Origin: an uncultured Clostridia bacterium
GTDB taxonomy: Bacteria; Bacillota; Clostridia; Lachnospirales; Lachnospiraceae
Assembly: GCA_947643415.1 (NCBI GenBank)
Contig: CANRWA010000006.1
Location: 1 to 64,000 of the forward strand
DNA length: 64,000 nucleotides
Reading direction: 5' to 3'
The notes under the pieces were generated by a model. That model did no database searches and was not told the DNA's origin. It was given only the letters and a program-made list of their open reading frames with translations. Of the stretch, positions 21,489 to 50,854 are shown in pieces; position 1 is the stretch's first letter, and the number at the start of each line of letters is the position of its first letter. Both the position numbers and the translations under genes were made by a program.

Positions 21489-23078
21489 CTAATTTCTTCC
21501 AAATTCGCTTAAGATCAATCCTTCATTCCGCTCCAGTGCAGTCTGTACGCTCCATGGATGTGTAAACAGGAGAAGAGGCTTGTCATGCAGGTCTTTCACC
21601 TTCTTTGTATCAGAAGTCACCGATAGTCCTGCCACATCCATCTCCTCATTTTCAATCCAGCGCACATGTTCATATGGGAGCTGTTCCATGCGGATCTCAA
21701 CATTATATTCATTTTCCAGCCGATACTGAAGAACTTCAAACTGCAGAACCCCCACAACCCCTACAATGATCTCTTCCATTCCCGTGTTAAACTCCTGAAA
21801 GATCTGGATTGCCCCTTCCTGTGCAATCTGGCTGATCCCCTTCATAAACTGTTTTCGTTTCATGGTATCAACCTGGCGCACCCTGGCAAAATGCTCTGGT
21901 GCAAAGGTTGGTATCCCTTCAAACCTCACAGGTTCTTTCCCCTTATATAGAGTATCACCAATAGAGAAAATTCCCGGATCAAACACGCCAATGATATCTC
22001 CGGCATACGCCTCTTCTACATGCTTTCTCTCCTGTGCCATCATCTGTTGGGGCTGGGACAGCCGCAGTTTCTTCCCTCCCTGCACATGCATGACCTCCAT
22101 GCCTGCCTCAAACTTCCCAGAACATACCCTCATAAATGCAATCCTGTCTCTGTGCGCTTTATTCATATTGGCCTGTATCTTAAAAACAAAGGCGGAGAAT
22201 TCATCAGAAAATGGATCCACCTCCGTTCCCTCTGAGGTACGCGGCAGCGGCGAAGTCGTCATATCAAGGAAATGCTGCAGAAATGTCTCTACACCAAAAT
22301 TTGTCAGGGCCGAACCAAAGAAAACCGGAGAAAGCTTCCCATTACGCACCCGCTCCAGATCAAACTCATCACTGGCACCATCCAGCAATTCGACTTCCTC
22401 GCTTAACTGATCATGATACTCCTTCGTGATCAGCTCATCCAATCCGGCATCCCCAAGCTTCACCTCCACAGTCTCTACCTTATGTCCATTATCTCCTGCC
22501 ATAAAGCGTGATATCGTCTGTGTACTGCGGTCATAGACTCCTTTAAAATTCTTCCCGGAACCAATGGGCCAATTAATGGGACAGGTGCGAATCCCCAGTA
22601 CATTTTCAATCTGATCGATGAGTTCGAAAGGATCCATCGCCTCCCGGTCCATTTTATTGATAAAGGTAAAAATAGGAATTCCTCTCATGACACACACCTT
22701 AAAGAGCTTGATAGTCTGTGCCTCTACCCCCTTGGAACCATCGATCACCATAACAGCAGAATCTGCTGCCATGAGCGTCCGGTAAGTATCCTCAGAAAAG
22801 TCCTGATGCCCTGGTGTATCCAGAATATTAATACAAAATCCGTTATAATTGAACTGAAGGACAGATGAAGTAACAGAGATCCCTCTTTCCTTCTCAATCT
22901 CCATCCAATCAGACACAGCATGTTTCGCCGCTTTCCGTCCCTTAACAGAACCTGCCAGATTGATCGCTCCCCCATATAAAAGGAACTTCTCTGTCAGTGT
23001 CGTCTTACCAGCATCCGGGTGGGATATAATGGCAAAGGTACGGCGTTTTTCTATTTCCTGTCTCAATGAACCACTCAT
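21489..23078 (-). CDS. prfC: Peptide chain release factor 3
   Basis: A GTPase that recycles RF1 and RF2 from the terminating ribosome. At 529 residues it has family length. G1 is SHPDAGKTTLTEK; the switch region is EKERGISVTSS; G3 is NILDTPGHQDFSEDTYRT, and DTPGHQDFSEDTYR is diagnostic of RF3 rather than EF-G; G4 is FINKMDRE. The C-terminal portion includes VGVLQFEVLQYRLENEY, also RF3-specific. The start at 23078 (MSGSLRQEIEKRRTF) is the family start and follows GAGGATTTTC. It is transcribed leftwards; the tRNA-Gln gene lies upstream on the same strand. Confidence 0.96.
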   Translation of the reverse strand: MSGSLRQEIEKRRTFAIISHPDAGKTTLTEKFLLYGGAINLAGSVKGRKAAKHAVSDWMEIEKERGISVTSSVLQFNYNGFCINILDTPGHQDFSEDTYRTLMAADSAVMVIDGSKGVEAQTIKLFKVCVMRGIPIFTFINKMDREAMDPFELIDQIENVLGIRTCPINWPIGSGKNFKGVYDRSTQTISRFMAGDNGHKVETVEVKLGDAGLDELITKEYHDQLSEEVELLDGASDEFDLERVRNGKLSPVFFGSALTNFGVETFLQHFLDMTTSPLPRTSEGTEVDPFSDEFSAFVFKIQANMNKAHRDRIAFMRVCSGKFEAGMEVMHVQGGKKLRLSQPQQMMAQERKHVEEAYAGDIIGVFDPGIFSIGDTLYKGKEPVRFEGIPTFAPEHFARVRQVDTMKRKQFMKGISQIAQEGAIQIFQEFNTGMEEIIVGVVGVLQFEVLQYRLENEYNVEIRMEQLPYEHVRWIENEEMDVAGLSVTSDTKKVKDLHDKPLLLFTHPWSVQTALERNEGLILSEFGRN

Positions 23079-23168
23079 GAAAATCCTCATTTCTGCAGAC
23101 CCGATGAGAACTGCTATAATAACTGTAATAATATAACAAAAGTCCTGATATCTATCAGGACTTATAAG

Positions 23169-23240
23169 CTGGGCTACCAGGATTCGAACCTGGAAATGCT
23201 GGAGTCAGAGTCCAGTGCCTTACCGTTTGGCGATAGCCCA
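23169..23240 (-). tRNA. tRNA-Gln (anticodon CTG)
   Basis: 72 bases fold into a full cloverleaf. The acceptor stem is TGGGCTA/TAGCCCA; the D arm is GCCAAACGGTAAGGC; the anticodon stem CTGGA/TCCAG encloses loop CTCTGAC, giving CTG, which reads CAG. The T arm has GGTTCGAATCC. The discriminator is G, as expected for tRNA-Gln. CCA is not encoded. Confidence 0.95.
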
Positions 23241-23345: not shown

Positions 23346-24200
23346 TTACTGGCAGGAAGGAATCCGAAATGCTGGAAATGGCTGAAAGACCGCCATTTCC
23401 GATATATCGTTTCTACTGCCATAGGCTAGGAAGCAGTCACAGGCCCGCCGTGTACATTTTTTCTCTGGCAAGCTGTCCAGCCCATCTTGATATAGATTTC
23501 CCATCTTCTGGTGGCAAAGAATACAGGAACGGATGCTTCCATCCCCTTCCACCATCAGTGCCCCCCTGCACTCCCGCGCATCCGGCTGAAAATACCTCAG
23601 CTCCAGTCCAAAATAATCATCAATAGCAGCAAATGCCTGTATCTCATCCTCTCTGTACCTGCGTCCAAGGCCATCCATTTTATTCACCCACATATAGATA
23701 TGGCTGTCCAATCTCCTGCGCAGTTCATGGAGAATACGGATATTCTCCGGCACGCCAACACTTCCCACACAGAACTGCACCCCGGCTTCCTGAATACAAC
23801 TGCACTGTTCCAGGAAACGGTCCACAGATATCATCGCCGGATGAAACGTCCCCCACAGCCTCAGTTTTTCTTTGTTTCCGCCATGGCCCTCATAAATATC
23901 CAGCATCTTCTCCACAGGAAAACTAAGATTACTCTGCGCCCCTACAGCCTTTATCCCGCCACACTTGGTGAGCTGCGCCAGCCCTTCCCAGTAATGTTCA
24001 TGGATCATCGCCTCCCCATAAGGAACAACCTGAACTGCCCCGAAAAATCCACATTCTTCTATTTTCCTGACAAAACGGAACCATTCCTCCTGATCCCTCT
24101 CCAACTGCCGTGTACTGGCTTTCTTTCTGGAAAATGGACAATATGGGCAGGAATAATTGCAGAAATCCAGACTGCCGCGATAATAAATCTGCCTGACCAT
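23346..24200 (-). CDS. Radical SAM protein, STM4011-like
   Basis: A 284-residue radical SAM enzyme. The cluster motif CNYSCPYC (C-x3-C-x2-C, residues about 14-21) lies at the very N-terminus after YYRGSLDF. The C-terminal region carries further cysteines (ECRGALMVEGDGSIRSC, ILCHQ, KKCTRRACDC), which could hold an auxiliary iron-sulfur cluster as in SPASM/twitch proteins. The start at 24200 follows GGAGGGGT; an upstream in-frame ATG lacks an RBS. It is the last gene of the five-gene operon 28285-23346. Gene content and order match the Salmonella STM4011-STM4015 set, of which the radical SAM STM4011 is one end. Substrate and product are unknown to me. Confidence 0.8.
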   Translation of the reverse strand: MVRQIYYRGSLDFCNYSCPYCPFSRKKASTRQLERDQEEWFRFVRKIEECGFFGAVQVVPYGEAMIHEHYWEGLAQLTKCGGIKAVGAQSNLSFPVEKMLDIYEGHGGNKEKLRLWGTFHPAMISVDRFLEQCSCIQEAGVQFCVGSVGVPENIRILHELRRRLDSHIYMWVNKMDGLGRRYREDEIQAFAAIDDYFGLELRYFQPDARECRGALMVEGDGSIRSCILCHQKMGNLYQDGLDSLPEKKCTRRACDCFLAYGSRNDISEMAVFQPFPAFRIPSCQ

Positions 24201-24247
24201 ATATCTACCCCTCCATTCCGAATAAGCTATCAAGCTTATTTTCCACA

Positions 24248-25540
24248 CTACCCCTCCAGCATCGGTGAGATCTCCGAATGCACCATTTTGCGTCTCACCT
24301 CATCTGAGATCAGCATCGGTCCCAGATAATCCGACAGGGAAAACCCTTTCTCGGTGAGCCAGATCTTCTCCCCATCCTCATAGGCATATCCTTTTTGTAT
24401 CCAGTCAGCCAACTCTGGAAAATCCCGTTCTGGTTCCGACCTGAAATATTTCCTGTAATCCACCTTTGACAGGCCACACTGAAACAGGATATTTTTAATC
24501 ACAAATCTCCGTCTCTGTTCCTCTTCAGACAAAATAAACCCATGATGGATTACTGTATGATCCGCTGTCTTTATATACTGGTCCAGGATCTTCCTGCACT
24601 GGTTCTGCCTGACACCATATGGCATACAGAAATGAAGTTCATCAATATATGTGCGGCCACCACAGCCAATCGATATCGTATTGTCAAAACCGCACCCCGA
24701 CAGTCCACTGGTCTCTCCGTTCCTCACAAACCGCCGCATAGAATAGGGTACATATCCTCTTTCCTTCAGATATTGCCTGGCAGAGAGGTACATCTGCCAG
24801 GCAGCCTCCGGCCTCCTGACTGCCTTCGCCGACAGATAAGTATCTTTCTTTATATATAGCGGATATATAAATAATTCCTCCGGCTCGTATGCCAGTGCCT
24901 GCTCAATGGAAGAAATGAAGCTCTCCTCCGTCTGACCCGGAATCCCATAGATCAGATCCAGGTTTACACAGGAAAATCCCACATTCATTATCATTTCCAT
25001 AGCACATCTAACCTGTTCCACAGTATGGCTGCGGTTCAGGGCCGCCAGCTCCTCCTCATAAAAGCTCTGTACTCCCATACTGATCCGTGTCACATGATGC
25101 TCCTTCAAAAGAGCTAACTTCTCCTTCGTTGTCTGTGCCGGGGAGGTCTCCACAACGGTCTGCCTTCCCCTGGCATCGAAACCCATCTGCTCCTCTGCGA
25201 TACGGAATACCCGTTCCATCTGCGGGACGGAAAGCATCAACGGCGTCCCGCCTCCTATGGTCAGATCAGTAAACACAATAGATTCCGGCAGGATTTCTGA
25301 TATCTGTCTGGCATGACGCCCCATTGCATCTATATATTGCCCCATTCGTTCCCCGCTCTGTCCTGTGACCGAAAACAGGTTGCAATATCCACACTTACTC
25401 TGACAGAAAGGAATATGAAAATAAAGGCTGCACTCACGGTTTGCCAGCCTGCCCATATAATCTGCCAAATTGATTCCCTCCAGTACCCCATACGCTGTCT
25501 TATGGGGATAACTGTACATATACTGCTGATATGGATTCAT
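24248..25540 (-). CDS. HemN-like radical SAM protein, STM4012-like
   Basis: A 430-residue radical SAM enzyme of the coproporphyrinogen-oxidase-like (HemN/HemW) superfamily. The cluster motif is CQSKCGYC (residues 46-53) inside LYFHIPFC, with the HemN-type aromatic after the third Cys replaced by Asn (CGYCNLF). TIGGGTPLMLS and NLDLIYGIPGQTEESF are the standard HemN-fold loops. The C-terminal extension (about 330-430) contains a small helical and winged domain like the HemN C-domain. It is not the haem-pathway HemN/HemW: it belongs to a five-gene cassette, separated by 12 bases from its upstream neighbour. The catalysed reaction is unknown. Confidence 0.82.
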   Translation of the reverse strand: MNPYQQYMYSYPHKTAYGVLEGINLADYMGRLANRECSLYFHIPFCQSKCGYCNLFSVTGQSGERMGQYIDAMGRHARQISEILPESIVFTDLTIGGGTPLMLSVPQMERVFRIAEEQMGFDARGRQTVVETSPAQTTKEKLALLKEHHVTRISMGVQSFYEEELAALNRSHTVEQVRCAMEMIMNVGFSCVNLDLIYGIPGQTEESFISSIEQALAYEPEELFIYPLYIKKDTYLSAKAVRRPEAAWQMYLSARQYLKERGYVPYSMRRFVRNGETSGLSGCGFDNTISIGCGGRTYIDELHFCMPYGVRQNQCRKILDQYIKTADHTVIHHGFILSEEEQRRRFVIKNILFQCGLSKVDYRKYFRSEPERDFPELADWIQKGYAYEDGEKIWLTEKGFSLSDYLGPMLISDEVRRKMVHSEISPMLEG

Positions 25541-25552
25541 CTGTCTCCTCCT

Positions 25553-26356
25553 TCAGGCCTTTTGCCCTGGAATCAGAAAATGTTTATATGGCACAGTATT
25601 CACAACAGGATGATTGAATCCATGATATAAATAACCATCCTCTCCATAACAGGTTCCATGGTCAGAACAGCAGATGCAGAATGTATCCCCCTTGTCCTGA
25701 AACGCTTCAAACAGCCTGTCCAATTCGCCATCCACATAACGGAGTGCTGCGGCATGTGTCTCCACACTGTCATGTTTCTCCCCTTCTATATAGAAATAAT
25801 TGGGATAGTGAATGGCAGAAATATTGATATACATCATGATAAGTTTTCCCTCTGGAATCTCATGAACTTTTCTCACGGCAAAGTCAATCTGGTTTGTGGC
25901 AGATTCTTTTATCTTACAGCCAAAGGAAGGATTCCAGTAACTATGTTGAAAGTAGCCGGGCATCACCTTCCCGATATCGGTCCGCTTGTCGAAGAAACTA
26001 AGCCCTCCAATACAATAAGTACCATATCCTTCTCTCTCCATCCCTTCTACAATAGTAGATCCCTGAAAACAAAAGGCATCTTCTGGCGCCTTTCGCCCCA
26101 TCCCGATATCCTCAGAGAAGAATAATTTCTCCCGTTTCTTCATATCCCGTACCTTGGAATCCACAGGCAGGAATCCGGCAAACATTGCCTGATGGGATGG
26201 ATATGTAAAATTCCCAGGAGCCTGACATTCCCTCCACTTTCCATACCGGTTCAGTACCGGGGTTCTGCCCTGCTCTTCTTCCCTTATCGCCACATCATAC
26301 CGAAGTGAGTCAATACACACAAAAAGAATGTTGTACTGCCCCACAATCTGATTCAT
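25553..26356 (-). CDS. Alkaline-phosphatase/sulfatase-superfamily hydrolase, STM4013-like
   Basis: 267 residues from the ATG at 26356, one base after the stop of the upstream gene; an in-frame start at 26386 inside that gene is possible. The sulfatase/phosphatase-superfamily metal sites are visible: LFVCIDSLRYDVA near the N-terminus (first metal Asp) and CSDHGTCYGEDGYLYHGFNH near the C-terminus (Asp-His-Gly plus later His). The TYPSHQAMFAGFLP segment occupies the place of the nucleophile Ser/Thr. No signal peptide is present, so it acts in the cytoplasm, unlike classical sulfatases. In the operon it could release or install a phosphate, phosphonate or similar ester during maturation of the product; this is inference. 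Confidence 0.8.
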   Translation of the reverse strand: MNQIVGQYNILFVCIDSLRYDVAIREEEQGRTPVLNRYGKWRECQAPGNFTYPSHQAMFAGFLPVDSKVRDMKKREKLFFSEDIGMGRKAPEDAFCFQGSTIVEGMEREGYGTYCIGGLSFFDKRTDIGKVMPGYFQHSYWNPSFGCKIKESATNQIDFAVRKVHEIPEGKLIMMYINISAIHYPNYFYIEGEKHDSVETHAAALRYVDGELDRLFEAFQDKGDTFCICCSDHGTCYGEDGYLYHGFNHPVVNTVPYKHFLIPGQKA

Positions 26357-26357
26357 A

Positions 26358-27407
26358 TCAATCACGTTTTCTCCATTCAAATGCATCTTCTACTACTTTC
26401 GTCCTTTTCTGTTCCTGCCACAAAGCGAATTCTTCCATATATCGGATCTGTTCTTTATAAATCTTATTTTCTTTAAAAATATCCTGATACATCAAATCGC
26501 CCTGTCCATTGATCTCAATAATACGGGGATGCAGGGAGCCTTTTTCCAGAAGAATGTCGATCCCTGCCACGGCAAGCTCCGGAAAAACTTCCATTGCCCT
26601 TTCGCAGACTCCCTCTATCTCCTTTATGGTCTGTTCGGAAAGCTGTAGTTTTTCGATCTCCATGGCCGCATTATTCAAGTGAAGGTTAGTGATCGGTCCC
26701 TTTGAACGCCGGACTACCATAAAGACAGCCCTGCCAAACTGCCACACTACCCTGAGATCATAGCTTTGCCCCTGAAAGGAAGCCTTTGGATGCCATCGTT
26801 CTACCACTGCCCCCAGGGAAAGTACGGCATTCAGGTGACGCTGGATCCCGCCTGGATCCTCCATGCGGTAAATGGTCTTTGTATTAACCAGTTCCCTCTC
26901 CTGCATGTGGCAGGAAGTATATGCGGTCTCCCTGTCCCTTCCCGGCGTTCTCCGATATGCCACCACCCCGGCAGCGCCAGAGCAGAATATCGGCTTAATA
27001 AACACAGAATAGGTCCGATGCCGCTCCATCGCCTCGGATAACTGCCAGAAGTTTTCTATCCTTTCCGGAAACATCTCTGTCACCGGGACACCATAATGTA
27101 TCAGTTCTTCTTTACAAGCCCTTTTGTCCAGAACACGCCGGATTCCTGCCGGGGAATTTAGAAAATGGCAGCCACAGTTCTCAAGTTTCGACAGGGCGCT
27201 CCCATATTCCCTGATCTGTCCGTTCATCTGGAAAAGATCCGCTGTCTCATAAGAAGGTGGATCAAGTTTCACCACCTCCCCGGCAAAGTCCACCTGATCC
27301 ACCTCTTTCCAGTCCACAAAGGAAACCGGTATATGTAACTGCTCTGCTGCTTTCAGAAAATAATCTGTCCGCCGTGTCTCACGCCTGCCTATCAGTCTGA
27401 TGCCCAT
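26358..27407 (-). CDS. ATP-grasp-like protein, STM4014-like
   Basis: 349 residues. The N-terminus has GIRLIGRRETRRTDYFLKAA; the central part shows features of an ATP-grasp ligase: VFIKPIFCSGAAGVVAYR (ATP-binding lysine and glycine loop), YDLRVVWQFGRAVFMVVRRS, AVAGIDILLEKG and PRIIEINGQGD, where the final Glu-Ile-Asn is the Mg-binding strand. ATP-grasp enzymes join a carboxylate to an amine, thiol or similar group through an acyl phosphate. Its ATG (27407-27405) overlaps the TAA of the preceding gene as TAATG, so expression is coupled to the LRR protein. Best inference: it forms an amide or peptide-like bond on the pathway's substrate. Confidence 0.8.
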   Translation of the reverse strand: MGIRLIGRRETRRTDYFLKAAEQLHIPVSFVDWKEVDQVDFAGEVVKLDPPSYETADLFQMNGQIREYGSALSKLENCGCHFLNSPAGIRRVLDKRACKEELIHYGVPVTEMFPERIENFWQLSEAMERHRTYSVFIKPIFCSGAAGVVAYRRTPGRDRETAYTSCHMQERELVNTKTIYRMEDPGGIQRHLNAVLSLGAVVERWHPKASFQGQSYDLRVVWQFGRAVFMVVRRSKGPITNLHLNNAAMEIEKLQLSEQTIKEIEGVCERAMEVFPELAVAGIDILLEKGSLHPRIIEINGQGDLMYQDIFKENKIYKEQIRYMEEFALWQEQKRTKVVEDAFEWRKRD

Positions 27408-28285
27408 TATTCTGTCAACATCGGCCAGCGGTAGATCTCACCATCATACTCATCATCCTCCTGCTGGTCCTCTACATTCACTTCAATGGACAACTTCTTT
27501 AACTTCTCCATCATGGCATCTGACATAAAATGATATTCCAGGTTCAAAGCCTTAATATTGGCATGTTCTGGAACTTCCTTTAGAAGTATCTCGCCGCCTT
27601 TATCAGACAAAGAACCCATAGAAAGATCCAGTTCCTCAATCTGCTTCATATACTTGGACTTAACAACAACTTCCGTTATCTCATCCTGAATCTCACTATC
27701 CATGATCCCAAGAACTTCAAGTTTTGCAAAATCAGATTTATCCAGCATTGCTTCAATATCAGACGTATCTCCATCAAAGCCATAGTCTTCCACACCAATG
27801 TACAGGAGCAGATTCCTTAGTTCGGGTAATTCTGCCTCTCCGATGCTCTGCAGCACCTCTTTGGGCAGGCCACCGCAAATGATCTCCAGACTTTTCAGGC
27901 TGCCATGCTTTATCTTGCCCAAAGACAGATTGTTACTGCCTTTGATGACCAGTTTTTCAAGCTGCGGCAGTGCCTCCCACAATTTTGAGTAATCTGCCTG
28001 CTCAATCCAGGAAACCTCACATTCATCATACTCCATATCTCCGATAAAGAGGCTCTTAATATGGGAGAACTTGTCCTTATTCTCCACCATGCCGTCTATG
28101 ATCGCCTGGGCATCATTATCCCATGATTCTCCCCAGCATCCCACAATGATCTCCTCTAATTCCGGCAGTTTCGGGTCTTCCAGGATCTCTGCGATGATGG
28201 TCTTCGCATTCTTTTCCCCACCCTCATAATCCTCCCATTCATAGGAGTATTTCTTACTCTTTTCCTCTGCATAAGTAAGCTCCAT
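27407..28285 (-). CDS. Leucine-rich-repeat protein, STM4015-like
   Basis: 292 residues, acidic, cytoplasmic. After a charged N-terminus (AEEKSKKYSYEWEDYEGG) comes a run of leucine-rich repeats: LPELEEIIVGCWG, FSHIKSLFIGDME, LPQLEKLVIKGSN, HGSLKSLEIICGG, LPELRNLLLYIGV, FAKLEVLGIMDSE, MKQIEELDLSMGS and HANIKALNLEYHF. The ATG at 28285 follows GGAGGT and is the first gene of the operon, so the LRR protein leads the set. In the Salmonella counterpart an LRR protein also accompanies the enzymes. A scaffold or substrate-recognition role for the radical SAM and ATP-grasp enzymes is plausible but unproven. A 158-bp palindromic element lies about 150 bases upstream. Confidence 0.78.
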   Translation of the reverse strand: MELTYAEEKSKKYSYEWEDYEGGEKNAKTIIAEILEDPKLPELEEIIVGCWGESWDNDAQAIIDGMVENKDKFSHIKSLFIGDMEYDECEVSWIEQADYSKLWEALPQLEKLVIKGSNNLSLGKIKHGSLKSLEIICGGLPKEVLQSIGEAELPELRNLLLYIGVEDYGFDGDTSDIEAMLDKSDFAKLEVLGIMDSEIQDEITEVVVKSKYMKQIEELDLSMGSLSDKGGEILLKEVPEHANIKALNLEYHFMSDAMMEKLKKLSIEVNVEDQQEDDEYDGEIYRWPMLTE

Positions 28286-28440: not shown

Positions 28441-28598
28441 AGGAACTGTAAATAAATAACTTTTAAATAGTGCGCAGGATTTTTCTCCGGGAGTGTTACT
28501 CAAAATCAGGCGCATAGTAGGCTATGTAACTGATTTTTTGATAGCACTATTCGGAGAAAAAGACAAGCAGTATTAAAAGTTATTTATTTACAGTTCCT
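28441..28598. mobile_element. MITE-like 158-bp palindromic element
   Basis: Perfect 26-bp terminal inverted repeats (28441-28466 and 28573-28598; first bases AGGAACTGTAAATAAATAAC). Inside, further complementary blocks (TTTTTCTCCG at 28480-28489 with its complement at 28552-28561, and near-matches around 28491-28549) let the whole unit fold into one long hairpin. No reading frame of its own. Target duplications are not clear. The right repeat supplies the last codons and the TAA stop of the gene at 28584-28997. No second copy was noticed in the window. Confidence 0.75.
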
Positions 28599-28997
28599 AA
28601 TCCTTACGGCAGTGCTCTTCTCTGCATCATACTCATAAACCTGGTCACTGGAAGGGAATTTCATCCCCATCTTCTTTGCTTTTTTGTACAGTTCCTTATA
28701 ATCCACCGTAACATTCTCCACTTCCCTTGCCAGAACTGCATTTTCCTGCTCAAGTCCTTCAATCTCTCTCTTAAGGCTATAATTCTGCCGTTCCAGCATA
28801 ACGGATGTACTCTGCCGATTCACTATATAAAAACAAATACCCAGAAAAAACATACAGAAGAGCAGGGTTATGAAAATAATCCTGGCGAAATATCTTTTCT
28901 TCCGCTCCTTCTCCACATCAATTACTTTAACCTTCCTGCCTGTATTTACTATCTGAATGGCAGTATTGCCAACTATATAATCTGTCGTTATCTTCAT
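28584..28997 (-). CDS. FtsL/FtsB-like single-pass protein with altered C-terminus
   Basis: 137 residues, with one membrane segment at about 38-60 (IIFITLLFCMFFLGICFYIV) after a basic cytoplasmic part, then a heptad-like coiled coil (LERQNYSLKREIEGLEQENA) and a short tail. This is the layout of divisome linkers FtsL/FtsB/DivIC, but no family signature is decisive. It overlaps the upstream RHH gene by four bases and is probably co-transcribed. Its last residues RNCK and the TAA stop are encoded by the right terminal repeat of the MITE-like element, so the native C-terminus has been replaced. Confidence 0.6.
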   Translation of the reverse strand: MKITTDYIVGNTAIQIVNTGRKVKVIDVEKERKKRYFARIIFITLLFCMFFLGICFYIVNRQSTSVMLERQNYSLKREIEGLEQENAVLAREVENVTVDYKELYKKAKKMGMKFPSSDQVYEYDAEKSTAVRIRNCK

Positions 28998-29731: not shown

Positions 29732-30619
29732 TTATGCACCACCTGTTGCCGGTTGCTGCGGGCAGCACCGAAGGTGCGCGTACCAAAAAGAGGGAGGCGG
29801 CAAAAATAAATATATTTGTTTTTGAGCCTCCCTCGTAAAATCAGCATATGCTTTTGCTGCTGCACCATTTTTGTCATAAGCATAAATACTCTTTCCAGCG
29901 GCACTTGTCTCCGCTGCCTTGACCGATACGGGAATGACCGTCTTGTAGACTTTTACAATCCTCCCATAGTTCTGTTTCAAACTGTCCGCTGTGGCACGGG
30001 CAAGATTTGTCCTCATATCTGCAAGCGTAAGCACCACACCATCTACTTTCAGGGATGGATTTATCTGACGCTGTACCCTGCCGATTGTTTTAGTAAGCTG
30101 TGCCATACCTTTTAACGGGAGATAGTGTGCCTGTACCGGAATAATCACGCTGTCTGCTGCGGCAAGAGCATTGATTGTAAGCATTCCCAAACTTGGCATA
30201 CAATCAATAAGGATATAGTTATACTCCTTTTTTAAGCCTGATAGATAATTTTTAAGAGTAACCTCTCTACTCATGGCATTTACCAGTATCGTTTCCATGC
30301 CAGATAATTCGATATTTGTCGGCACAAGGTCTACACCTTCCTCATGGTGCAGTATTCCCTCATGACAGTCTAACGGTTCATCACGGATAATCCCCTCCAT
30401 ATGCGTTGTCAAGGTAACATCCAAATTGTCTGCCTCCGTCCACCCTAATGCTGTCGTTAAATCCCCCTGCGGATCAGCATCCACTAAAAGCACCCTTTTC
30501 CCCTGATTCGCCAGTCCGATACCTAAATTAACCGTTGATGTGGTCTTAGCGGTTCCGCCCTTTTGGTTAGCAATCACAATAACTTTTGCCTCTTGCGGTG
30601 GCTTTTGTTTTTTTGCCAT
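29732..30619 (-). CDS. ParA/Soj-family partition ATPase, probably with aberrant C-terminus
   Basis: 295 residues. Deviant Walker A KGGTAKTTSTVNLGIGLA, Walker A' region VLLVDADPQGDLTTALGW, and Walker B with NYILIDCMPSLGMLTINAL. The family body ends around AAKAYADFTREAQKQIY. The remaining 20 or so residues (beginning LFLPPPSFWYAH) look like read-through into non-coding DNA, which suggests a deletion removed the natural end and the usual downstream parB partner. ParA ATPases segregate plasmids and conjugative elements. The start at 30619 has a weak RBS (GGAGGCTAAGATGG). It is probably a leftover of an older integrated element. Confidence 0.8.
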   Translation of the reverse strand: MAKKQKPPQEAKVIVIANQKGGTAKTTSTVNLGIGLANQGKRVLLVDADPQGDLTTALGWTEADNLDVTLTTHMEGIIRDEPLDCHEGILHHEEGVDLVPTNIELSGMETILVNAMSREVTLKNYLSGLKKEYNYILIDCMPSLGMLTINALAAADSVIIPVQAHYLPLKGMAQLTKTIGRVQRQINPSLKVDGVVLTLADMRTNLARATADSLKQNYGRIVKVYKTVIPVSVKAAETSAAGKSIYAYDKNGAAAKAYADFTREAQKQIYLFLPPPSFWYAHLRCCPQQPATGGA

Positions 30620-30642
30620 TCCATCTTAGCCTCCTTTTGCAC

Positions 30643-30674
30643 AAAATAAAAAAACCACTCCACTATTGGAATGG
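30643..30674 (-). terminator. Intrinsic terminator
   Basis: On the minus strand CCATTCC-N6-GGAGTGG (one wobble pair) followed by seven T residues. It lies between the 114-residue gene and parA. Confidence 0.65.
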
Positions 30675-30716
30675 CTATGTATTTTCCCGCTGCGTAAACG
30701 GGAATATCTAAAAAAT

Positions 30717-31058
30717 TTACTCACAAATCAACCTACATTCATCTATTATCTCGTAAAAATCTTCCAAAACTTCTAACAAAAAAATTTCCTGTATTTCCTT
30801 TTGATTTTCAAAAGCAGCAATTAAGTAAGGATATTCCTCTCCAGCTATGCCAGATAATCCCCTGAGCATGCGTACTGCCTCCATTATCTTTCCCATTTCA
30901 TTCAATGCTGCCAGTGCAAAATAAATATCTTCTAAATCCGACAACTTCTTTTCTGTAGGAAATAACCTATCAATTAGATGTATAGTAAATGTACCCGATA
31001 TTTTATTCAACACATTTTTTACATCATTTCCCATTACTCCCTTTTCACTTGCTTTCAT
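30717..31058 (-). CDS. Hypothetical protein of a mobile element
   Basis: 113 residues from the ATG at 31058, seven bases behind AAAGGAG. It is all-helical in appearance (DVKNVLNKISGTFTIHLIDR, LEDIYFALAALNEMGKIMEA) and acidic at the end. I do not recognise the family. It is followed by a terminator and lies between the parA remnant and the composite att-like end at 31204-31291, so it belongs to the decayed element. Confidence 0.6.
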   Translation of the reverse strand: MKASEKGVMGNDVKNVLNKISGTFTIHLIDRLFPTEKKLSDLEDIYFALAALNEMGKIMEAVRMLRGLSGIAGEEYPYLIAAFENQKEIQEIFLLEVLEDFYEIIDECRLICE

Positions 31059-31452
31059 TGCGTTTTCTCCTTTCATTTTTTAGCCGCCGCAACAGGTTGG
31101 CTATGTACCAGAACGCAAAAAAGCCGTCTGCTCTAGCAAAAGAACAAACGACTATCCACTTTCATCTTTATTCAATTATTCTTTTTTATTCATCCTCATT
31201 TTAGTACCAAAATAGTACCACGGGACAAATTAAAAGCCGGAAAACCCAGTGTTTATGCGGCTTCCCGGCTCTCTGTTTACTATTCGAACTCCCTAGCAAT
31301 TAAACTATTTGTTAATCTTTTAGGCGTATTTTCTACTATTATATACCGTTTATTTCGCATATTTTCCATATTATTTTGAATTTCAGAGTAAACAGGTATC
31401 ATATGGGTATCATCAAATTTCTCTCCCATTCTTACATACTATTACCCCAATT
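31059..31452. other. Element junction without genes
   Basis: 394 bases. Besides the composite end at 31204-31291 it is AT-rich. No supported coding sequence. Confidence 0.5.
31204..31291. other. Composite att-like end, copy A
   Basis: Three parts in order: tandem arm-like repeats GTACCAAAATAGTACCAC (31204-31221), a hairpin AGCCGG...CCGGCT (31235-31270), and the core GTTTACTATTCGAACTC (31275-31291). The same three-part arrangement with a 16/17 identical core occurs at 43294-43380. This is the design of a tyrosine-recombinase attachment region with arm sites and core. Confidence 0.5.
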
Positions 31453-32034
31453 TTACAACGAACGAATTACACTTTCAAATTGTATTATTCCTTTTAAAAT
31501 CTCATCTATTTTATCAAATTCATCATTTTTATCAAATGATTGTTGGGTATGTTTTGTTGATAAATGTGCAATTTCTCCCCTCAACTCGCCATACGAGGAT
31601 AGTGTAGCTAAAAAAACCGCATCAAAATCATTTATTTGATATCCTAATGGTTCATACATCCTTTTTATATTATGTTCCTTTATTCCATGATTGTCTCGTA
31701 CCAATTGTCTATAATCTGTAATTATCTTATAAACTTTAGTCTGAATATCGTCCTTCTTTTCTATTTTTTCGTGACATATCAATAATGATGCCAAATGATA
31801 ATTTGCAATATGTTTATCAGTCCATTTCTTTTCAGCCAGCGTTAATAATTTTAGTGCCACACTTTCAAAATAATCCTCAAATTCTGCATGACATAACAGC
31901 CTCAAGCCCTTTAATCGATCTGATTGCCTTTTACTTATACCATTAATGGACTGTTTAAAATCAAAATTATTTTTTAATTCTCGTATTCTTCTTTCAAGAT
32001 ATTTGCACTCTGTTGATCTTTTTATTTCTTCCAT
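31453..32034 (-). CDS. HEPN-domain protein (predicted RNase) paired with DUF262
   Basis: 193 residues from ATG 32034, which follows GAGGGGAAAC; an adjacent start at 32052 is possible. It is all-helical. LRLLCHAEFEDYFESVALKL resembles helix 1 of the RiboL-PSP/MAE-type HEPN families, and YGELRGEIAHLS contains the catalytic R-x4-H motif of HEPN ribonucleases (RGEIAH). The C-terminal FDKIDEILKGIIQFESVI is the closing helix. HEPN toxins cleave RNA in toxin-antitoxin and phage defence systems. It lies immediately downstream of the DUF262 gene with essentially no gap, so the two are one unit. Activity and trigger are inferred. Confidence 0.65.
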   Translation of the reverse strand: MEEIKRSTECKYLERRIRELKNNFDFKQSINGISKRQSDRLKGLRLLCHAEFEDYFESVALKLLTLAEKKWTDKHIANYHLASLLICHEKIEKKDDIQTKVYKIITDYRQLVRDNHGIKEHNIKRMYEPLGYQINDFDAVFLATLSSYGELRGEIAHLSTKHTQQSFDKNDEFDKIDEILKGIIQFESVIRSL

Positions 32035-32052
32035 AAGTAAGTTTCCCCTCAT

Positions 32053-33261
32053 TTAAGAAATAGTTTTCACTTCTATTCCATCTTCCTTTATTGCTAAAAA
32101 TTGCAATTTCACTTTACAATCTAATTTCCCTTGTATTATATTAAGCAATTTTGCAAATTTTAGGAATCTTGTACATACTCGCTTAGTTTCTTTAGCAGTA
32201 TCACTAATGGCTGATACAAATTCGCTATCATCATTTAAAGCAATAAAAGATTCAGTAAACTCCTTTTTATTCTTTAAAACCATTTGCCTTATATCATTGT
32301 CACTAAAATAGTAAGAAAACAACTCAAAAATACATCTATTAAATCGATTATTGCTCTTTCCTTTGGTATATCTACTAAAAGGAGAATTGGTTTCCATTAC
32401 ATCATAAGAAAATTCAATTGCTTTTTCTAACTGCTCAAATTCTTTTTTCAACAATTCATTATCTTGTTCCCACCTGTTATTTAATTTTTCGCATGTATCA
32501 TCCAAGAAATTTTTTAAATTCCCTTTATATTCTTCTATATTAAATTTAAAAGAAAAATACCTTAATGCCAACTCTATATCTTTCATTCTTGAATCAGCTG
32601 TTTTATTGTTCAACATCTTCATCATTACATCACTTTTAGCAGTTGCATCATCTAAATAATTTAAAAAAGCTCCTGGCTTTAATGCTTGTCGCAACTCCTG
32701 CGAAGATAATTTTTTACTTCCAGTATTCAATCGCAAAAATACTGTATACAAAAAAGCTTCATCTGGCCAATTTTTTATCACAACAGTTCGTATGGACTGA
32801 TTCTCTAAATTTGCAATATAATCATTTTCCTCTCTCTCAATATCAGCATATGTCATCCCATTCAATTCACTCAGTATATCCAAACCACTCAATCGCAATT
32901 TTTTAAAGGCATTTTCTGAACCATCATCATTTGAAAAAAAGCGACGTATACTTAATAGTCTCTGTTTTCCATCAATAACAATATAAGAATTCTTCTTCTC
33001 CTTACTTTCTGCTAGTATAATTGGTGGAACTGGCAAACCTAAAATTAATGATTCAATCAATTTACTTTTATCACCATTACTCCATGCATCTCTTCTCTGA
33101 AAAGTAGGATTCAAATCAATAGTTCCTTTTTCTAATTGCCTTGCGATGGTCTCTGTAGTCCAATCAGTTCCCCAAATTACAGCTTGATAAAACTTCTCTT
33201 TATCTGCTTGTAAATCTGTTTCTTCATTTTCTATAATATCCTCAAAATTATTATCATTCAT
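32053..33261 (-). CDS. DUF262-domain (GmrS/ParB-like NTPase) protein
   Basis: 402 residues. The N-terminal DUF262/ParB-like domain shows FQRRDAWSNGDKSKLIESLI, LGLPVPPIILAE and the nucleotide-binding motif VIDGKQRLLSIRRFF. The C-terminal helical half (about 200-402) has no HNH (DUF1524) motif, so unlike GmrSD it lacks its own nuclease. The following gene encodes a HEPN protein that could be the effector. In GmrSD and related type IV restriction or defence systems the DUF262 part senses and powers the response. The start follows AAAGGATA. Base composition is more AT-rich than the flanking core genes, which fits acquisition. Confidence 0.8.
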   Translation of the reverse strand: MNDNNFEDIIENEETDLQADKEKFYQAVIWGTDWTTETIARQLEKGTIDLNPTFQRRDAWSNGDKSKLIESLILGLPVPPIILAESKEKKNSYIVIDGKQRLLSIRRFFSNDDGSENAFKKLRLSGLDILSELNGMTYADIEREENDYIANLENQSIRTVVIKNWPDEAFLYTVFLRLNTGSKKLSSQELRQALKPGAFLNYLDDATAKSDVMMKMLNNKTADSRMKDIELALRYFSFKFNIEEYKGNLKNFLDDTCEKLNNRWEQDNELLKKEFEQLEKAIEFSYDVMETNSPFSRYTKGKSNNRFNRCIFELFSYYFSDNDIRQMVLKNKKEFTESFIALNDDSEFVSAISDTAKETKRVCTRFLKFAKLLNIIQGKLDCKVKLQFLAIKEDGIEVKTIS

Positions 33262-33310
33262 ATCTAAATATCCTTTCTAATTAATGATAAACTTTACTAT
33301 ATCAACTTAC

Positions 33311-33709
33311 TTAACAATACCTCTCCACAAACTCCGCTGGCGTCAAAATCTCCGGCTTATCAACATCCACATCACTAAAATCATTATCTCCCGTCACAAG
33401 AATATCCACATCTTCTAGTATTGCTGTATAAAGAACCGGATAATCTTTCACATCTCTGATTTCAAATAACGTTTCATCCAATATGTCTGGTGTATATACA
33501 TACTCATAATTCATTTTAGCAAGCAACGTATCTATAACACCGACTTTGTTAGAAAATTTTCTTCTGACAACATCCTTTAATTCTTCCACAATATACGAAG
33601 AAAGAACTAACTGATGTTCCATAAAAATACACTCCATCATCTGATTCATTTTCTTACTGGAAAACACCAATAACGAAATCAGCACATTTGTATCAACCAT
33701 TATCCGCAA
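33311..33709 (-). CDS. PIN-domain toxin (VapC-like)
   Basis: 132 residues. The PIN nuclease fold is supported by MRIMVDTNVLISLLVF (first Asp), ELKDVVRRKF (acidic centre) and ILVTGDNDFSDVDVDKPEIL (later Asp residues). It belongs to the PIN family usually labelled putative toxin-antitoxin system toxin component. PIN toxins cleave RNA. It starts directly after the stop of the AbrB-type gene, the classic antitoxin-toxin arrangement. Confidence 0.85.
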   Translation of the reverse strand: MRIMVDTNVLISLLVFSSKKMNQMMECIFMEHQLVLSSYIVEELKDVVRRKFSNKVGVIDTLLAKMNYEYVYTPDILDETLFEIRDVKDYPVLYTAILEDVDILVTGDNDFSDVDVDKPEILTPAEFVERYC

Positions 33710-33967
33710 TTATTTCACCGTTCTTTCTTTCCGCAGATCCTTAACCATCGCCACAACATCTTCTTCTGTCTCCAAACCAAGTCTATTTGCTTCTCCTGCA
33801 AATGCAGACTGAGCCTCCCTTAGTGCTTCCATAGAAGAATTTGCCAAATATATCCGTCCCGCTTCCTCCAAAAAAAGCACCTTACTTCCTTCTTTAATCC
33901 CTAACTTTTTTCTAATCTCTATTGGTATTGTAATTTGTCCTTTTGATGTAACTTTTGCAAGTTCCAT
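33710..33967 (-). CDS. AbrB/MazE-type antitoxin (VapB-like)
   Basis: 85 residues from ATG 33967, set by GGAAGGAGG. The swapped-hairpin AbrB domain is clear: AKVTSKGQITIPIEIRKKLG and GSKVLFLEEAGRIYL. The C-terminal tail (GLETEEDVVAMVKDLRKE) would wrap the partner toxin. It is expected to neutralise the PIN protein and repress the operon. Together they stabilise the mobile element or respond to stress. Confidence 0.85.
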   Translation of the reverse strand: MELAKVTSKGQITIPIEIRKKLGIKEGSKVLFLEEAGRIYLANSSMEALREAQSAFAGEANRLGLETEEDVVAMVKDLRKERTVK

Positions 33968-34235
33968 ACAACAACCTCCTTCCGGCGCATTCCTTACTTT
34001 CCTTACATTTATTATACCTATTTTTATCCGTATTATCAACTATCATTTTATTATCACTTAAAAAGCTAATATAATAACATTTTAGAATGTATTATCTGAC
34101 CAAATACCATTCAAACAATATATATTTATTTAATTTCACGAACCCCTTTTTATCCTTCTCACAGTCCTTCGATTATAATGTTATCCCGCACCGCTGGTGC
34201 GAGAATTTCTTCAGCACTTACACCTCCACATCTCC

Positions 34236-34865
34236 CTACAATTCATTTAGATATTTTTGCAATTTATCCACAAATCGTCCAATATGTATTCCATCCACAA
34301 AAGAATGGTGTGCCTGAACTGACACTGGCATAATAATCCTCCCATCCTTCTCGTAATATTTCCCCCAGTCAAACAAAGGTGTTGCATTATCCTTCTTGCC
34401 CGAATTGGTATGGGAAATATGGGTATATGTCACCCAAGGCATCGGGGAACATTGAAATACATCATTGCCAAGCGGTCCAGTAAAATATTCTTTTTGTTCT
34501 TCTGCCGTCTGTGCCGCCAAATCCACATATTCTTTCATCGTGTCCTGCATAGGAACATTAACTACCTTAAATAATTCTGTCTCTTTGTTCAAGTATGTAA
34601 AAGCGGTATCAACTTTATCAAACAAAACGATTTTTCCATCTAAGAAACGATAACGGAATGCCTCAATCTCATTTGCACATTTACATACCGCATAGACAAA
34701 CGCAAGTGTAAAAGAAAAATTTTGTTTTTTTATCTGTTGCAGAAAATTCGTAATATCTGCATCAAAAGTCACGCAAAACGCAGGCTCAACACTGTTTCTA
34801 AAAATCATACAGTGCATAGCTCTTTCCCATGTCTTTTCATCTATGACCTTGTATGCATTTGCCAT
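34236..34865 (-). CDS. CatA-like O-acetyltransferase
   Basis: 209 residues from ATG 34865 with GGAGGATAT in front; the longer upstream frame has no RBS. It has the chloramphenicol acetyltransferase fold: WERAMHCMIFRNSVEPAFCV, FTLAFVYAVCKCANEI and the catalytic motif HHSFVDG near the C-terminus, where the second His is the general base. Length fits the family (about 210-220). Whether it modifies chloramphenicol cannot be told: several residues differ from classical CatA/CatP by eye and many chromosomal homologues act on other substrates. It lies in the cargo part of the mobile element. Confidence 0.75.
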   Translation of the reverse strand: MANAYKVIDEKTWERAMHCMIFRNSVEPAFCVTFDADITNFLQQIKKQNFSFTLAFVYAVCKCANEIEAFRYRFLDGKIVLFDKVDTAFTYLNKETELFKVVNVPMQDTMKEYVDLAAQTAEEQKEYFTGPLGNDVFQCSPMPWVTYTHISHTNSGKKDNATPLFDWGKYYEKDGRIIMPVSVQAHHSFVDGIHIGRFVDKLQKYLNEL

Positions 34866-35051
34866 AAAGATATCCTCCAGTCCTTTACTTTCTAGGTTCT
34901 TACTCATTTTATCATATATTTTCTCTATATGAAAGCAAAAACCGACATTTTTCGTCCAAAACAAAAGAGACTCTTTATTTTTTATATATCTACATAACCG
35001 TTTTCTTCCTATGCTTTCAAATAATATCCATAACATTTGCTTCAAAAAAGC

Positions 35052-35813
35052 TCACTTTTGCCCAAGCAGAAAAAGTCTCTTAAACGAAAATAATATTTTC
35101 CCATTTTTCTGATAATGATATTCTATCTCTAAATTCTTCATCACTTCATCCAAAAACAACTTCTGTTCTTCCTCATCCAGCCGTTCTATATATGGACGCA
35201 ATGCCGCTCCCCTTAGAAATTCAAGAATCTTTCCATGATTGTCCATCTCATGGCAATAATCGGTTATCCACATTTCAATTTTATTCGTAGATTTTGCTAT
35301 CATGTCATAGTATTCTGATGCAGAATGTAGAACGTATTTACCTTCTTCGATACCTTTAAATTTATCAGCAAATATTTTTTCCGATTTTATAATACATTGA
35401 TTTGCCGGCATTTCCTCAAATAACGGTATCTGTGTCGCAAAAATTCCATTTTCATTCAGCATAGAAAACGCATTTGATATAAAGTCTTCCTGATTTGGCA
35501 ACCATTGTACAAAAGCATTAGAAAATATCAAATCAAACGTCCCCATATCTAAAAGTGGTTTACTGCAATCCCTTTGTATAAATGTAACTGTCGGCAAAAC
35601 CTCCCTTGCTTTTTCCAACATTTCCTTTGACAAGTCTACTCCTATGATTTCAGCATTTTCCCATGCTGATACAAGCGGTACTGTACTCATTCCCGTACCA
35701 CACCCTACATCTAAAATTCTTTGAAATTGCATATCCTTGATTCTAGCAGCCAAGTCAATTGAAGGTTGTATCCGCTCTTTGCCATAGCGGTTATAAATTT
35801 CAGTATTCCACAT
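35052..35813 (-). CDS. SAM-dependent methyltransferase (trans-aconitate methyltransferase-like)
   Basis: 253 residues. Class I methyltransferase motif I is ILDVGCGTGMSTVPLV, with the acidic residue at IIGVDLSKEMLEKAR, motif II at FDLIFSNAFVQWLP and motif III near LNENGIFATQIP. The N-terminal MWNTEIYNRYGKERIQPSID and the QWLPN segment match the Tam family. The natural substrate is unknown. The start at 35813 (ATG) follows GGAGAGG; a TTG six bases upstream is possible. It sits between the CatA-like and GNAT genes, all leftward. Confidence 0.8.
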   Translation of the reverse strand: MWNTEIYNRYGKERIQPSIDLAARIKDMQFQRILDVGCGTGMSTVPLVSAWENAEIIGVDLSKEMLEKAREVLPTVTFIQRDCSKPLLDMGTFDLIFSNAFVQWLPNQEDFISNAFSMLNENGIFATQIPLFEEMPANQCIIKSEKIFADKFKGIEEGKYVLHSASEYYDMIAKSTNKIEMWITDYCHEMDNHGKILEFLRGAALRPYIERLDEEEQKLFLDEVMKNLEIEYHYQKNGKILFSFKRLFLLGQK

Positions 35814-35839
35814 ACGCAACCTCTCCTTTTTCCACAGCT

Positions 35840-36289
35840 TTATCCTTTCTCCATATACACAAACCTCAATTCCTCTGTAACCTGTTCCTCGTCAAAAATT
35901 TTATAGCCAAGTTTCTGATACAATGTTATATTCTTTTCACTTCTGCTACTGGTAAACAACTCGTACCTTTGATCCGGATATTGCTTTTCCATTTCAAGTA
36001 GAAGTTTTGTCCCTATCCCTTGTCCCTGCTTTGATGGATGCACCATCAATTTTCCAATATAAGCAGTCCCGTTATCGCAAAATGCTCTTACAGAACCAAT
36101 GATAGTTTTGTCTTCATCTAATGCTTTTAAAATAATCCCTTTTTGATATTCATTCTCCACATCAGTCAAAGTTTGTTTTAGTGGTGGAATATCTTGGTTA
36201 TCAAAAAGTCTCGCCTCACTTTGATAGGCGAGATACTGCAAGTCAAGTATTTTCTGTAGGTCTCTCTTTTCTGCTCTTGCAACAATCAT
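35840..36289 (-). CDS. GNAT-family N-acetyltransferase
   Basis: 149 residues with the acetyl-CoA loop QGQGIGTKLLLEME preceded by the strand AYIGKLMVHPS, then NITLYQKLGYKIF near the C-terminus. This is a stand-alone GNAT domain. The substrate is not predictable. It is close to the methyltransferase gene on the same strand (26 bases), so probably the same cargo operon. Confidence 0.88.
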   Translation of the reverse strand: MIVARAEKRDLQKILDLQYLAYQSEARLFDNQDIPPLKQTLTDVENEYQKGIILKALDEDKTIIGSVRAFCDNGTAYIGKLMVHPSKQGQGIGTKLLLEMEKQYPDQRYELFTSSRSEKNITLYQKLGYKIFDEEQVTEELRFVYMEKG

Positions 36290-36388
36290 AATATATCCTC
36301 CAAAATATAAAACTCAAAGTTTTTCTTCATACAAAGCAATTATCCTTTTATATTTCAAGCAGTATATGACAATGCTCTTTCGATATTC

Positions 36389-37150
36389 TCATAAATACTT
36401 TTCTATTCTCCCCTGCTCTACAACACGTTTCCCCAACAATGTAATTGCCTGCTTTGGACAAATGTTTATGCACCGATAACACATGGTACATCGATTCCCA
36501 GCTTTGGCAACATTGTTTTCAATATTCAAATTCTTCATTGGGCATGACTCCACACATTTCCCACAGGCAACACACTTTCCGGCATCAATCTTCACTTTAT
36601 CCGTATATTGCTTCGTTTTATTATAAAAATATAAACGCTGTCCAAACAATCCTGCCAAATGGTACATTAATCCAATTCCTTCTTGTGGCATCCTTCCATT
36701 TTTCATATCCCGAACTGTAATATCTATTTTCCTTTCCGCTGCTCTCACAAGTTCCACATTTTGCTCTATAGGACGTTTCAATGCTTTTACATCAGCTATG
36801 CTGTCCGGCATCTTCAAATGCAATCCACCTATAATTTTTGCTCCATCCTTATGAAGCCGACGAGCCAGAATGCCTGCCCCATCTCCACTAAATAATCCCA
36901 TCGTTGCTATTACAAATATTTTTTTGCCTTGCCATAACCGTTGATATCTATCTACAAAATCCTTAAGCATTTTGGGAATATTGCTATACTGCACAGAGTA
37001 ACTAAAAACAATTTCTTCATTGTTTTTTATGTGACTAACTACGTTTTCATCTTCTATTGCAAAAATTTTCGCTGATTCATCATATTGACCAAGAAAAGTT
37101 TCCAAGGCATATCGTGAATTTCCTGTTCCACTAAAATAAATACCAATCAT
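36389..37150 (-). CDS. EFR1-type flavodoxin-ferredoxin fusion protein
   Basis: 253 residues. The N-terminal flavodoxin-like domain (about 1-155) starts IGIYFSGTGNSRYALE, which provides the FMN phosphate loop. The C-terminal domain holds two 4Fe-4S motifs, CVACGKCVESCPMKNLNIE and CTMCYRCINICPKQAI. It should move electrons between flavin and iron-sulfur centres; partners are unknown. It is encoded 13 bases downstream of the CPBP protease gene, and both are cargo genes of the mobile island. Confidence 0.88.
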   Translation of the reverse strand: MIGIYFSGTGNSRYALETFLGQYDESAKIFAIEDENVVSHIKNNEEIVFSYSVQYSNIPKMLKDFVDRYQRLWQGKKIFVIATMGLFSGDGAGILARRLHKDGAKIIGGLHLKMPDSIADVKALKRPIEQNVELVRAAERKIDITVRDMKNGRMPQEGIGLMYHLAGLFGQRLYFYNKTKQYTDKVKIDAGKCVACGKCVESCPMKNLNIENNVAKAGNRCTMCYRCINICPKQAITLLGKRVVEQGRIEKYL

Positions 37151-37163
37151 TTCAAGCCCCCCT

Positions 37164-37829: not shown

Positions 37830-37954
37830 ATTCCTTAAGCACTCCTAAACTCTTGTCTAACATCACATCAATATAAACAGTATATCATGTCATTCCACAT
37901 AATTCCACATTTTCCGCAATCAAAATACAGAGCAGTCCTCTACCCCGCACACGT

Positions 37955-38341
37955 TTACACATATACCAACTTTCTCAGCACAATCTCCTCCGCAGCAATC
38001 CTCACATTATTCATAAGTCCAATCCACTTCATTTGCTCTGTAGCTTTTAACTCCTCCGTAATTCTCTCCTCTGCTTTCATCTGTTTTACGAGCTTTTCCA
38101 CCCTTGCATGGCCTTCTTTATCTATCTCATGCAGATGTTCATTCAATTTGCCATCCAGCATCAACTGTAAATACTCTGCTCTGCAATTTGCCTACAAATA
38201 CTCCCACCGCATAAGTCCATACTTCCCTATATTGTAATCCGTTCCCTCAGGCAATCCCAAATCAGGATAATACAAATCATGCTCTCCCAAGCGGTATACA
38301 ATTCCATTTTCCACAATAACTTCTGCTAATTCTATACTCAT
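37955..38341 (-). pseudogene. tnpV: tnpV pseudogene (in-frame amber)
   Basis: Read from ATG 38341 the frame encodes the TnpV-type transposon protein (YYPDLGLPEGTDYNIGKYG, MRWEYL) to a TAG at 38194-38192. Then, in the same frame, come ANCRAEYLQLMLDGKLNEHL and MKWIGLMNNVRIAAEEIVL to 37955. The TAG occupies the place of a Lys codon in intact relatives (EYLKANCRAEYL), so one A-to-T change broke the gene. TnpV occurs in Tn4451-type and related clostridial mobilizable transposons, where it is found near cat genes; here a CatA-like gene lies 3 kb away. The 69-residue part downstream could be re-initiated but has no strong RBS. Confidence 0.75.
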
Positions 38342-38417
38342 AATCTGCCTCCATTCTTATGTACGGATAAGAAGAAAAAATCATTTCTTTTATCCGTATC
38401 TGTTATCTGTTCTACAA

Positions 38418-40922: not shown

Positions 40923-40924
40923 AA

Positions 40925-50851: not shown

Positions 50852-50854
50852 TTG

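Follow-up and report, generated by a model that had tools for sequence, protein, structure and literature searches.

What does an operon that encodes two radical S-adenosylmethionine (SAM) proteins, a ligase, a hydrolase and a leucine-rich repeat (LRR) protein act on? We addressed this question for five leftward genes at positions 23346-28285 of a 64,000-nucleotide stretch, here called the window, from an uncultured Clostridia bacterium of the Lachnospiraceae (assembly GCA_947643415.1, contig CANRWA010000006.1). An earlier note, made from the letters alone, had recognized in them the STM4011-STM4015 set of Salmonella, and all five proteins did score above the curated NCBIfam cut-offs for these families, which places an STM4011-4015 cassette in one operon. 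No paper found in searches of open-licence PMC assigned a function, product or reaction to the five families. Our central observation is that STM4015, the LRR protein, ends in glutamate in every member examined. This terminal-Glu rule is new here, and it turns an undirected radical SAM operon into a question about one residue of one protein. The features of the operon are as follows.

27407-28285, minus strand: STM4015 family LRR protein (NF038076, 334 bits against a cut-off of 275; open reading frame (ORF) open to 28342)
27410-27484, minus strand: acidic linker and conserved tail at the C-terminus of STM4015 (last 25 codons, from the alignment of tails)
26358-27407, minus strand: STM4014 family ATP-grasp ligase, RimK/MptN/LysX-like (NF038074, 317.4 bits against 175)
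25553-26386, minus strand: STM4013/SEN3800 family hydrolase of the alkaline phosphatase superfamily (NF038075, 378.3 bits against 250)
24248-25540, minus strand: STM4012 family HemN-like radical SAM protein (NF006067, 524.5 bits against 380)
23346-24200, minus strand: STM4011 family radical SAM protein with SPASM/twitch-like C-terminal cysteines (NF038073, 291.8 bits against 200)

All five ORFs are complete, with one stop each, and are transcribed in the order STM4015, STM4014, STM4013, STM4012, STM4011. STM4015 and STM4014 overlap by 1 base, while gaps of 12 and 47 bases separate STM4013 from STM4012 and STM4012 from STM4011. Depending on the start of STM4013, its spacing to STM4014 is either a 1-base gap (inner ATG at 26356) or a 29-base overlap (outer start). 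The Salmonella record (L011; L and G numbers are our handles for locus records and genomes) carries the same five families in the same order, as the earlier note had stated.

The STM4015 protein of the window ends in IYRWPMLTE-COOH. Terminal Glu was present in 15 of 15 members of a first alignment, in 96 of 96 members above a floor of 150 bits (which excludes a partial copy in L057) and in 114 of 114 above 100 bits, a set that includes a few partial re-reads; stricter de-duplication left 110 of 110. Two copies of the window (L001 and L100) were dropped from some counts, as were ORFs cut at contig ends. The partner proteins served as a control, and C-terminal Glu occurred in only 5 of 78 STM4011, 3 of 94 STM4012, 5 of 101 STM4013 and 5 of 98 STM4014 proteins. 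The residue is encoded by GAA in 81 cases and GAG in 29, is followed by all three stop codons, and is kept whatever the spacing class of the downstream gene, as well as in copies without a nearby partner gene (seven were scored as having no neighbour, one of which, in L013, results from an over-extended STM4014 ORF). Since codons, stops and spacings are all mixed, selection acts on the amino acid rather than on a coupling signal, and we rejected an artefact of ribosome binding or gene overlap.

Terminal Glu is the sole invariant column within the last ~60 residues (alignment A8). Position -2 is Thr in 94 of 114 tails, followed in frequency by Ser, Ala and Gly; the commonest residues are Ala, Pro or Val at -5, Met, Ala or Leu at -4 and Leu, Val or Ile at -3, and the rest of the tail varies. 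The linker before it is acidic and variable in length. Within its own genome, STM4015 was the only match to a DNA pattern for MLTE followed by a stop, against five matches for the reversed-pattern control, although looser tails may escape this pattern.

STM4015 belongs to the same family as the crystal structure 2RA8 (Q64V53_BACFR; E 1.9e-110), an uncharacterised member to which the match begins at chain residue 74; several Bacteroides-type homologues are N-terminally longer. An additional N-terminal WGR domain was found in 7 of 59 members, and all 59 end in Glu. The family also shares a near-invariant cluster of residues, CEVSWIxQ. These proteins are very acidic, with a median charge of -30 (range -50 to +3) and a median isoelectric point (pI) of 4.39, and the last 25 residues alone have a median charge of -7. 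Median pI values were 8.1 for STM4014 and 8.6 for STM4011.

Copy number also bears on the role of STM4015. Tandem copies occur in L015, L026, L075, L077, L083, L112 and L113, other copies lie away from the operon (L109, L111, L122, L140 and a plasmid copy in L016), and all of these keep the Glu tail. One genome (G592) has five STM4015 copies against one STM4014 found. Several STM4015 copies per enzyme set are as expected of a substrate. The earlier note had offered the LRR protein as carrier or scaffold; judged from these sequences, a substrate or carrier would account for the tail rule and the copy number better than a scaffold.

For STM4014, the family models most often matched among 68 members were MptN (53), RimK (38) and CofF (13), followed by the commonest D-Ala ligase model (8), LysX (6), and MvdC and MvdD (1 each). 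CofF and MptN ligate onto a terminal glutamate, and LysX partners the carrier LysW. With single sequences as templates, hhalign scored STM4014 at 90.1 percent against RimK (E 1.8e-7, 280 columns) and at 94.6 percent against LysX (E 6.5e-8, 196 columns), compared with 0.3 percent for DdlB. Ten residues of ATP-grasp type are conserved in all 68 members (Lys95, Lys138, Glu203, Asp217, Arg219, Arg233, Thr240, Asn241, Asp284 and Asn300), and Glu298 in 67. STM4014 resembles RimK/LysX-type ATP-grasp ligases at the level of the superfamily. It scores below the cut-offs of the RimK, CofF and MptN families, and differs from RimK in its insertions and in its length (349 versus 300 residues).

The conserved gene set, the invariant Glu, the superfamily-level kinship of the ligase, the catalytic motifs and the acidity of STM4015 were all computed directly. 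We give an even chance to the reading that the operon encodes a protein-tethered modification pathway, in which STM4015 is the carrier or substrate and is loaded at its terminal Glu by STM4014. STM4015 would be a soluble, very acidic LRR protein with a flexible C-terminal arm and an obligatory Glu. STM4014 would activate a carboxylate of this Glu and couple it to an amine, supplied by a small molecule or an amino acid, while the LRR body and the acidic arm would dock the partner enzymes. The radical SAM proteins STM4011 (SPASM-like) and STM4012 (HemN-like) may then modify either the tethered group or the tail itself, and STM4013 (two-metal phosphodiesterase-like), often together with a HAD phosphatase, may remove a phosphate or nucleotidylphosphate. 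Ligation, tethering, docking and the order of these steps are what we infer.

Similar logic is known from the amino-group carriers of the LysW/LysX and Vzb22 pathways, which likewise pair an acidic globular carrier, extended at its C-terminus up to a final Glu, with an ATP-grasp ligase of the RimK/LysX type. One such pair was met in L176, where LysX scored above its cut-off beside a LysW-like ORF ending in QEDWGE. In PMC9303977, amino-group carriers are described as using the gamma-carboxylate of the C-terminal glutamate, and their enzymes as docking the negative carrier through positive residues. STM4015 is distinct from LysW in size and fold (a ~290-residue LRR protein, sometimes with WGR, versus ~53 residues), and its pathway from those of LysW in having two radical SAM enzymes and a phosphohydrolase downstream and no peptidase among the five genes. 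Because STM4015, an LRR protein, does not have the small LysW-type carrier fold, and an isopeptide bond on its Glu, with hydrolytic release, is a prediction, we did not class the operon with the amino-group carriers.

Pearlin pathways offer a second comparison, and their ligase is LanB-like. There too (3-thiaglutamate, ammosamide), a ribosomally made carrier has an amino acid assembled at its C-terminus, and the 3-thiahomoleucine pathway includes a radical SAM step (PMC9303977). The pearlin ligase is aminoacyl-tRNA-dependent rather than ATP-grasp, and the carrier is a short peptide. No tRNA-dependent ligase is present among our five proteins, and membership in the pearlin (PEARL) class was rejected. 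A broader form of our reading falls somewhat short of an even chance: the operon would represent an independently evolved case of C-terminal metabolite building, with the LRR protein as a giant carrier of the amino-group type, accessory in at least six phyla, and one enzyme set loading several carriers. If the tethered pathway is real, carrier-protein biosynthesis extends to a new carrier fold, and the operon may point to a metabolite, or a modification of proteins, common to gut commensals, soil actinomycetes, deinococci, cyanobacteria and Salmonella.

The hydrolase belongs to the alkaline phosphatase superfamily, as had been noted from the letters, and its residues Asp26, Thr61, Asp242 and His243, among others, are invariant in 61 of 61 members. 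Its FTYPSH stretch aligns on LTFPNH of 2GSN, a nucleotide pyrophosphatase/phosphodiesterase; at 6.3 bits this stretch is not significant alone. By motif, and by eye, Thr61 is likely to be the nucleophile position. Since Thr61 is invariant where sulfatases need Cys or Ser, the earlier term 'ester hydrolase' is better replaced by phosphodiesterase-like, which reads the motif and does not establish a class. On a plasmid of Streptomyces albidoflavus (L106:6860-10309), a relative of STM4013 lies with a weakly MoaA-like radical SAM gene, a thymidylate-kinase-like gene and a NUDIX hydrolase gene, and STM4015 was not found in this stretch. Such a cassette would fit a nucleotidyl or phosphodiester substrate.

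The CxxxCxxC motif is present in 95 of 95 STM4012 proteins, whose profile matched two structures, HemN (1OLT) and NocN (9P2U), the latter a methyltransferase. All 75 STM4011 members have the three cysteines of the radical SAM motif, and five further Cys, each in 74-75 of 75, form a SPASM/twitch-like pattern. A full SPASM domain has seven cysteines against these five, and the Pfam SPASM model stayed below its cut-off (E 0.0028, in L012). STM4011 also matched SkfB weakly (E 0.00041).

STM4011 is frequently joined to a HAD phosphatase, a sixth part that the earlier interpretation, otherwise partly borne out, had missed. The two are fused in 47 of the 69 STM4011-bearing loci of L017-L096, and 11 of the other 22 STM4011 proteins are also long (481-526 residues). 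In Salmonella, STM4011 is followed by a HAD gene of its own, unlike the window, where no HAD domain was found fused to STM4011 or encoded within 3 kb.

How constant is the set? The STM4013 alignment was searched against genome contigs, and the best-scoring 80 of at least 562 relatives were kept, mostly close relatives from Lachnospiraceae-type genomes by record title. The five genes were complete in 65 of these 80 loci, and their order was mostly constant (exceptions, L024, L051, L074 and L082). Most of the 15 incomplete loci reflect cuts at contig ends or missing genes that lie elsewhere in the genome. Twelve of these genomes were searched for STM4011, STM4012, STM4014 and STM4015, with L058, L072 and L089 (contig-end cuts) left out. 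STM4014 was found in 10 of the 12, STM4011 in 10 (not in G595 and G559) and STM4015 in 10 (not in G596 and G559). STM4012 was above its cut-off in 9, with two sub-cut-off pieces in G544 and a contig-end cut in G595.

Plasmid records with all five genes came from Bacillota, Pseudomonadota, Deinococcota and Actinomycetota, to which contigs added Bacteroidota (L086, L087 and L092) and Cyanobacteriota (L094, genome G558, with STM4011 on another contig), giving at least six bacterial phyla. The view that one unit is shared between Gram-negative and Gram-positive hosts was thereby upheld. Nor are the homologues mostly single: among the 80 loci, only the Chloroflexi genome G559 (L095) had STM4013 without its partners. 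Beyond these loci, L106 and L107 have relatives of STM4013 with no partner in the retrieved stretch, as does L114 with a distant one.

The explanations that compete with a tethered pathway differ in what they make of the tail. In a maturation like that of ribosomally synthesized and post-translationally modified peptides, the tail of STM4015 would itself be the product; the radical SAM enzymes would crosslink or methylate it, and the ATP-grasp enzyme would form an intramolecular ester or amide, as in graspetides, with nothing external attached. The SPASM-like cysteines of STM4011 and its weak similarity to SkfB fit a radical SAM enzyme acting on peptides, and STM4012 resembles NocN, which has a thiopeptide role. 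Against this, the tail varies in all but its last Glu, and none of its Cys, Tyr, Trp or Lys residues is invariant; even at -2, 20 of 114 members have Ser, Ala, Gly or Tyr instead of Thr. We consider this explanation unlikely. Membership in the graspetides proper was rejected on ligase type, the match to the MvdC- and MvdD-type ATP-grasp enzymes being weak as well as confined to one STM4014 member each. A scaffold that only organises the enzymes, with no covalent change to STM4015, is less probable still: the LRR fold and the CEVSWIxQ cluster, which could be a docking site, agree with it, yet it does not explain why the C-terminal residue is exactly invariant behind a linker that varies, or why G592 has five STM4015 copies and a single ligase gene.

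Just as improbable as the scaffold is a regulatory tag, by which STM4014 would add Glu to the C-terminus of STM4015 while the other enzymes run a metabolite pathway of their own, which the LRR protein binds or regulates. Glutamate is added by RimK to the S6 C-terminus, as the title of Kang et al. states, and the RimK-family similarity of STM4014 and the terminal Glu of STM4015 both suit such tagging. It leaves two radical SAM enzymes without a link to the tail, and the near-constant five-gene set and its co-occurrence within genomes suggest one pathway instead. An operon for haem synthesis or sulfatase maturation has very little probability. STM4012 is HemN-like, and STM4013 scores 36.2 against the Pfam Sulfatase cut-off of 25, with sulfatases as its best, though weak, matches in the PDB. 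Formylglycine formation in sulfatases needs Cys or Ser at the nucleophile, where STM4013 has Thr61 throughout; STM4012 reached 175.7 bits on HemW (cut-off 205.4) and 153.9 on HemN (cut-off 324.95), far below the 524.5 bits on its own family. Both roles were rejected on these grounds.

Several observations weigh against a tethered pathway of the kind preferred here. Known carriers such as LysW are small, and STM4015 is an LRR protein of ~290 residues whose charge can reach +3. The proposed partners are not uniformly basic: median pI is on the acidic side for STM4013 (6.4) and STM4012 (6.3), and STM4014 of the window is itself slightly acidic (pI 6.5). The kinship of the ligase is distant. STM4014 lies far below the RimK, MptN and LysX cut-offs (best E 4.8e-11, 4.5e-14 and 3.8e-7, respectively), fewer members match LysX than the D-Ala ligase model, the hhalign templates were single sequences, and PDB matches to its profile were weak and mixed, RimK (E 0.024) coming after D-Ala ligases (0.011) and carboxylases (0.005-0.008).

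The gene content also has gaps. The Chloroflexi genome G559 lacks STM4015, STM4014 and STM4011 anywhere and has only a sub-cut-off STM4012 match of 168 bits, STM4015 was not found in a genome search of G596, and a Bacteroides plasmid (L012) is without STM4012 and has STM4013 only as a fragment. For the Calothrix copy (L016), the search covered its plasmid only. The STM4013 relative in L106 sits in a different cassette, and most flanks share neither a peptidase nor a transporter family (the most frequent family reached 11 of 91 loci). Finally, the invariant Glu could serve as a tag that some other partner recognizes.

At its site in the window, the operon is an accessory unit, as two relatives of the same genus have only 387 or 440 bases in its place. 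Its flanking features are:

28584-28997: DivIC-like gene (family match), flanking the STM4015 end of the operon
23168-23240: tRNA-Gln, flanking the STM4011 end of the operon
21489-23090: prfC-like gene (named by eye), beyond tRNA-Gln

In these two relatives (L156 and L154), the backbone match runs through tRNA-Gln and resumes at the DivIC gene after 387 and 440 bases, respectively. Of the genus relatives with this empty site, G585 has STM4013 on another contig and none was found in G573. Its distribution is patchy: STM4013 was above its cut-off in 11 of 31 genomes of the genus and 6 of 249 of the phylum, and STM4015 in 7 of 299 of the family. Among 5,426 E. coli genomes, none had a near match to the 3-kb Salmonella stretch from STM4013 to STM4011. 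A PADLOC scan for phage-defence genes gave no specific match, only a partial 38.7-bit match of STM4012 to PDC-M51A, and a role in phage defence was rejected.

Flanks of 5 kb were compared for up to 91 loci, and the families with most loci were examined. No further constant partner emerged; a sensor-kinase-like family was present at 11 loci and a MATE-like family at 10 (both by eye). L075, L077 and L078 share an extra protein family in their flanks, ATP-grasp-like by eye. In L077 the gene of this family directly follows STM4011, and L075 and L077 are also among the loci with tandem STM4015. A DUF6745 gene and a gene for a protein of ~100 residues adjoin the operon, in varying orientation, in Actinomycetota (L015 and L108), Deinococcota (L014 and L113) and Methylobacterium (L013). 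The ~100-residue protein of L014, the one scanned, had no Pfam match. Both genes are possible accessory parts in those lineages.

Elsewhere in the window, a low-GC stretch at 29732-42076 (GC 0.32-0.36 at 30-38 kb) contains a ParA-like gene and, at 40925-42076, an integrase-like ORF (by eye). This stretch is probably a mobile element next to tRNA-Gly. Farther on, a long leftward run of genes at 47867-63983 has, by eye, the look of a contractile-tail prophage, and includes a large tape-measure-like ORF at 53332-56976 (also by eye).

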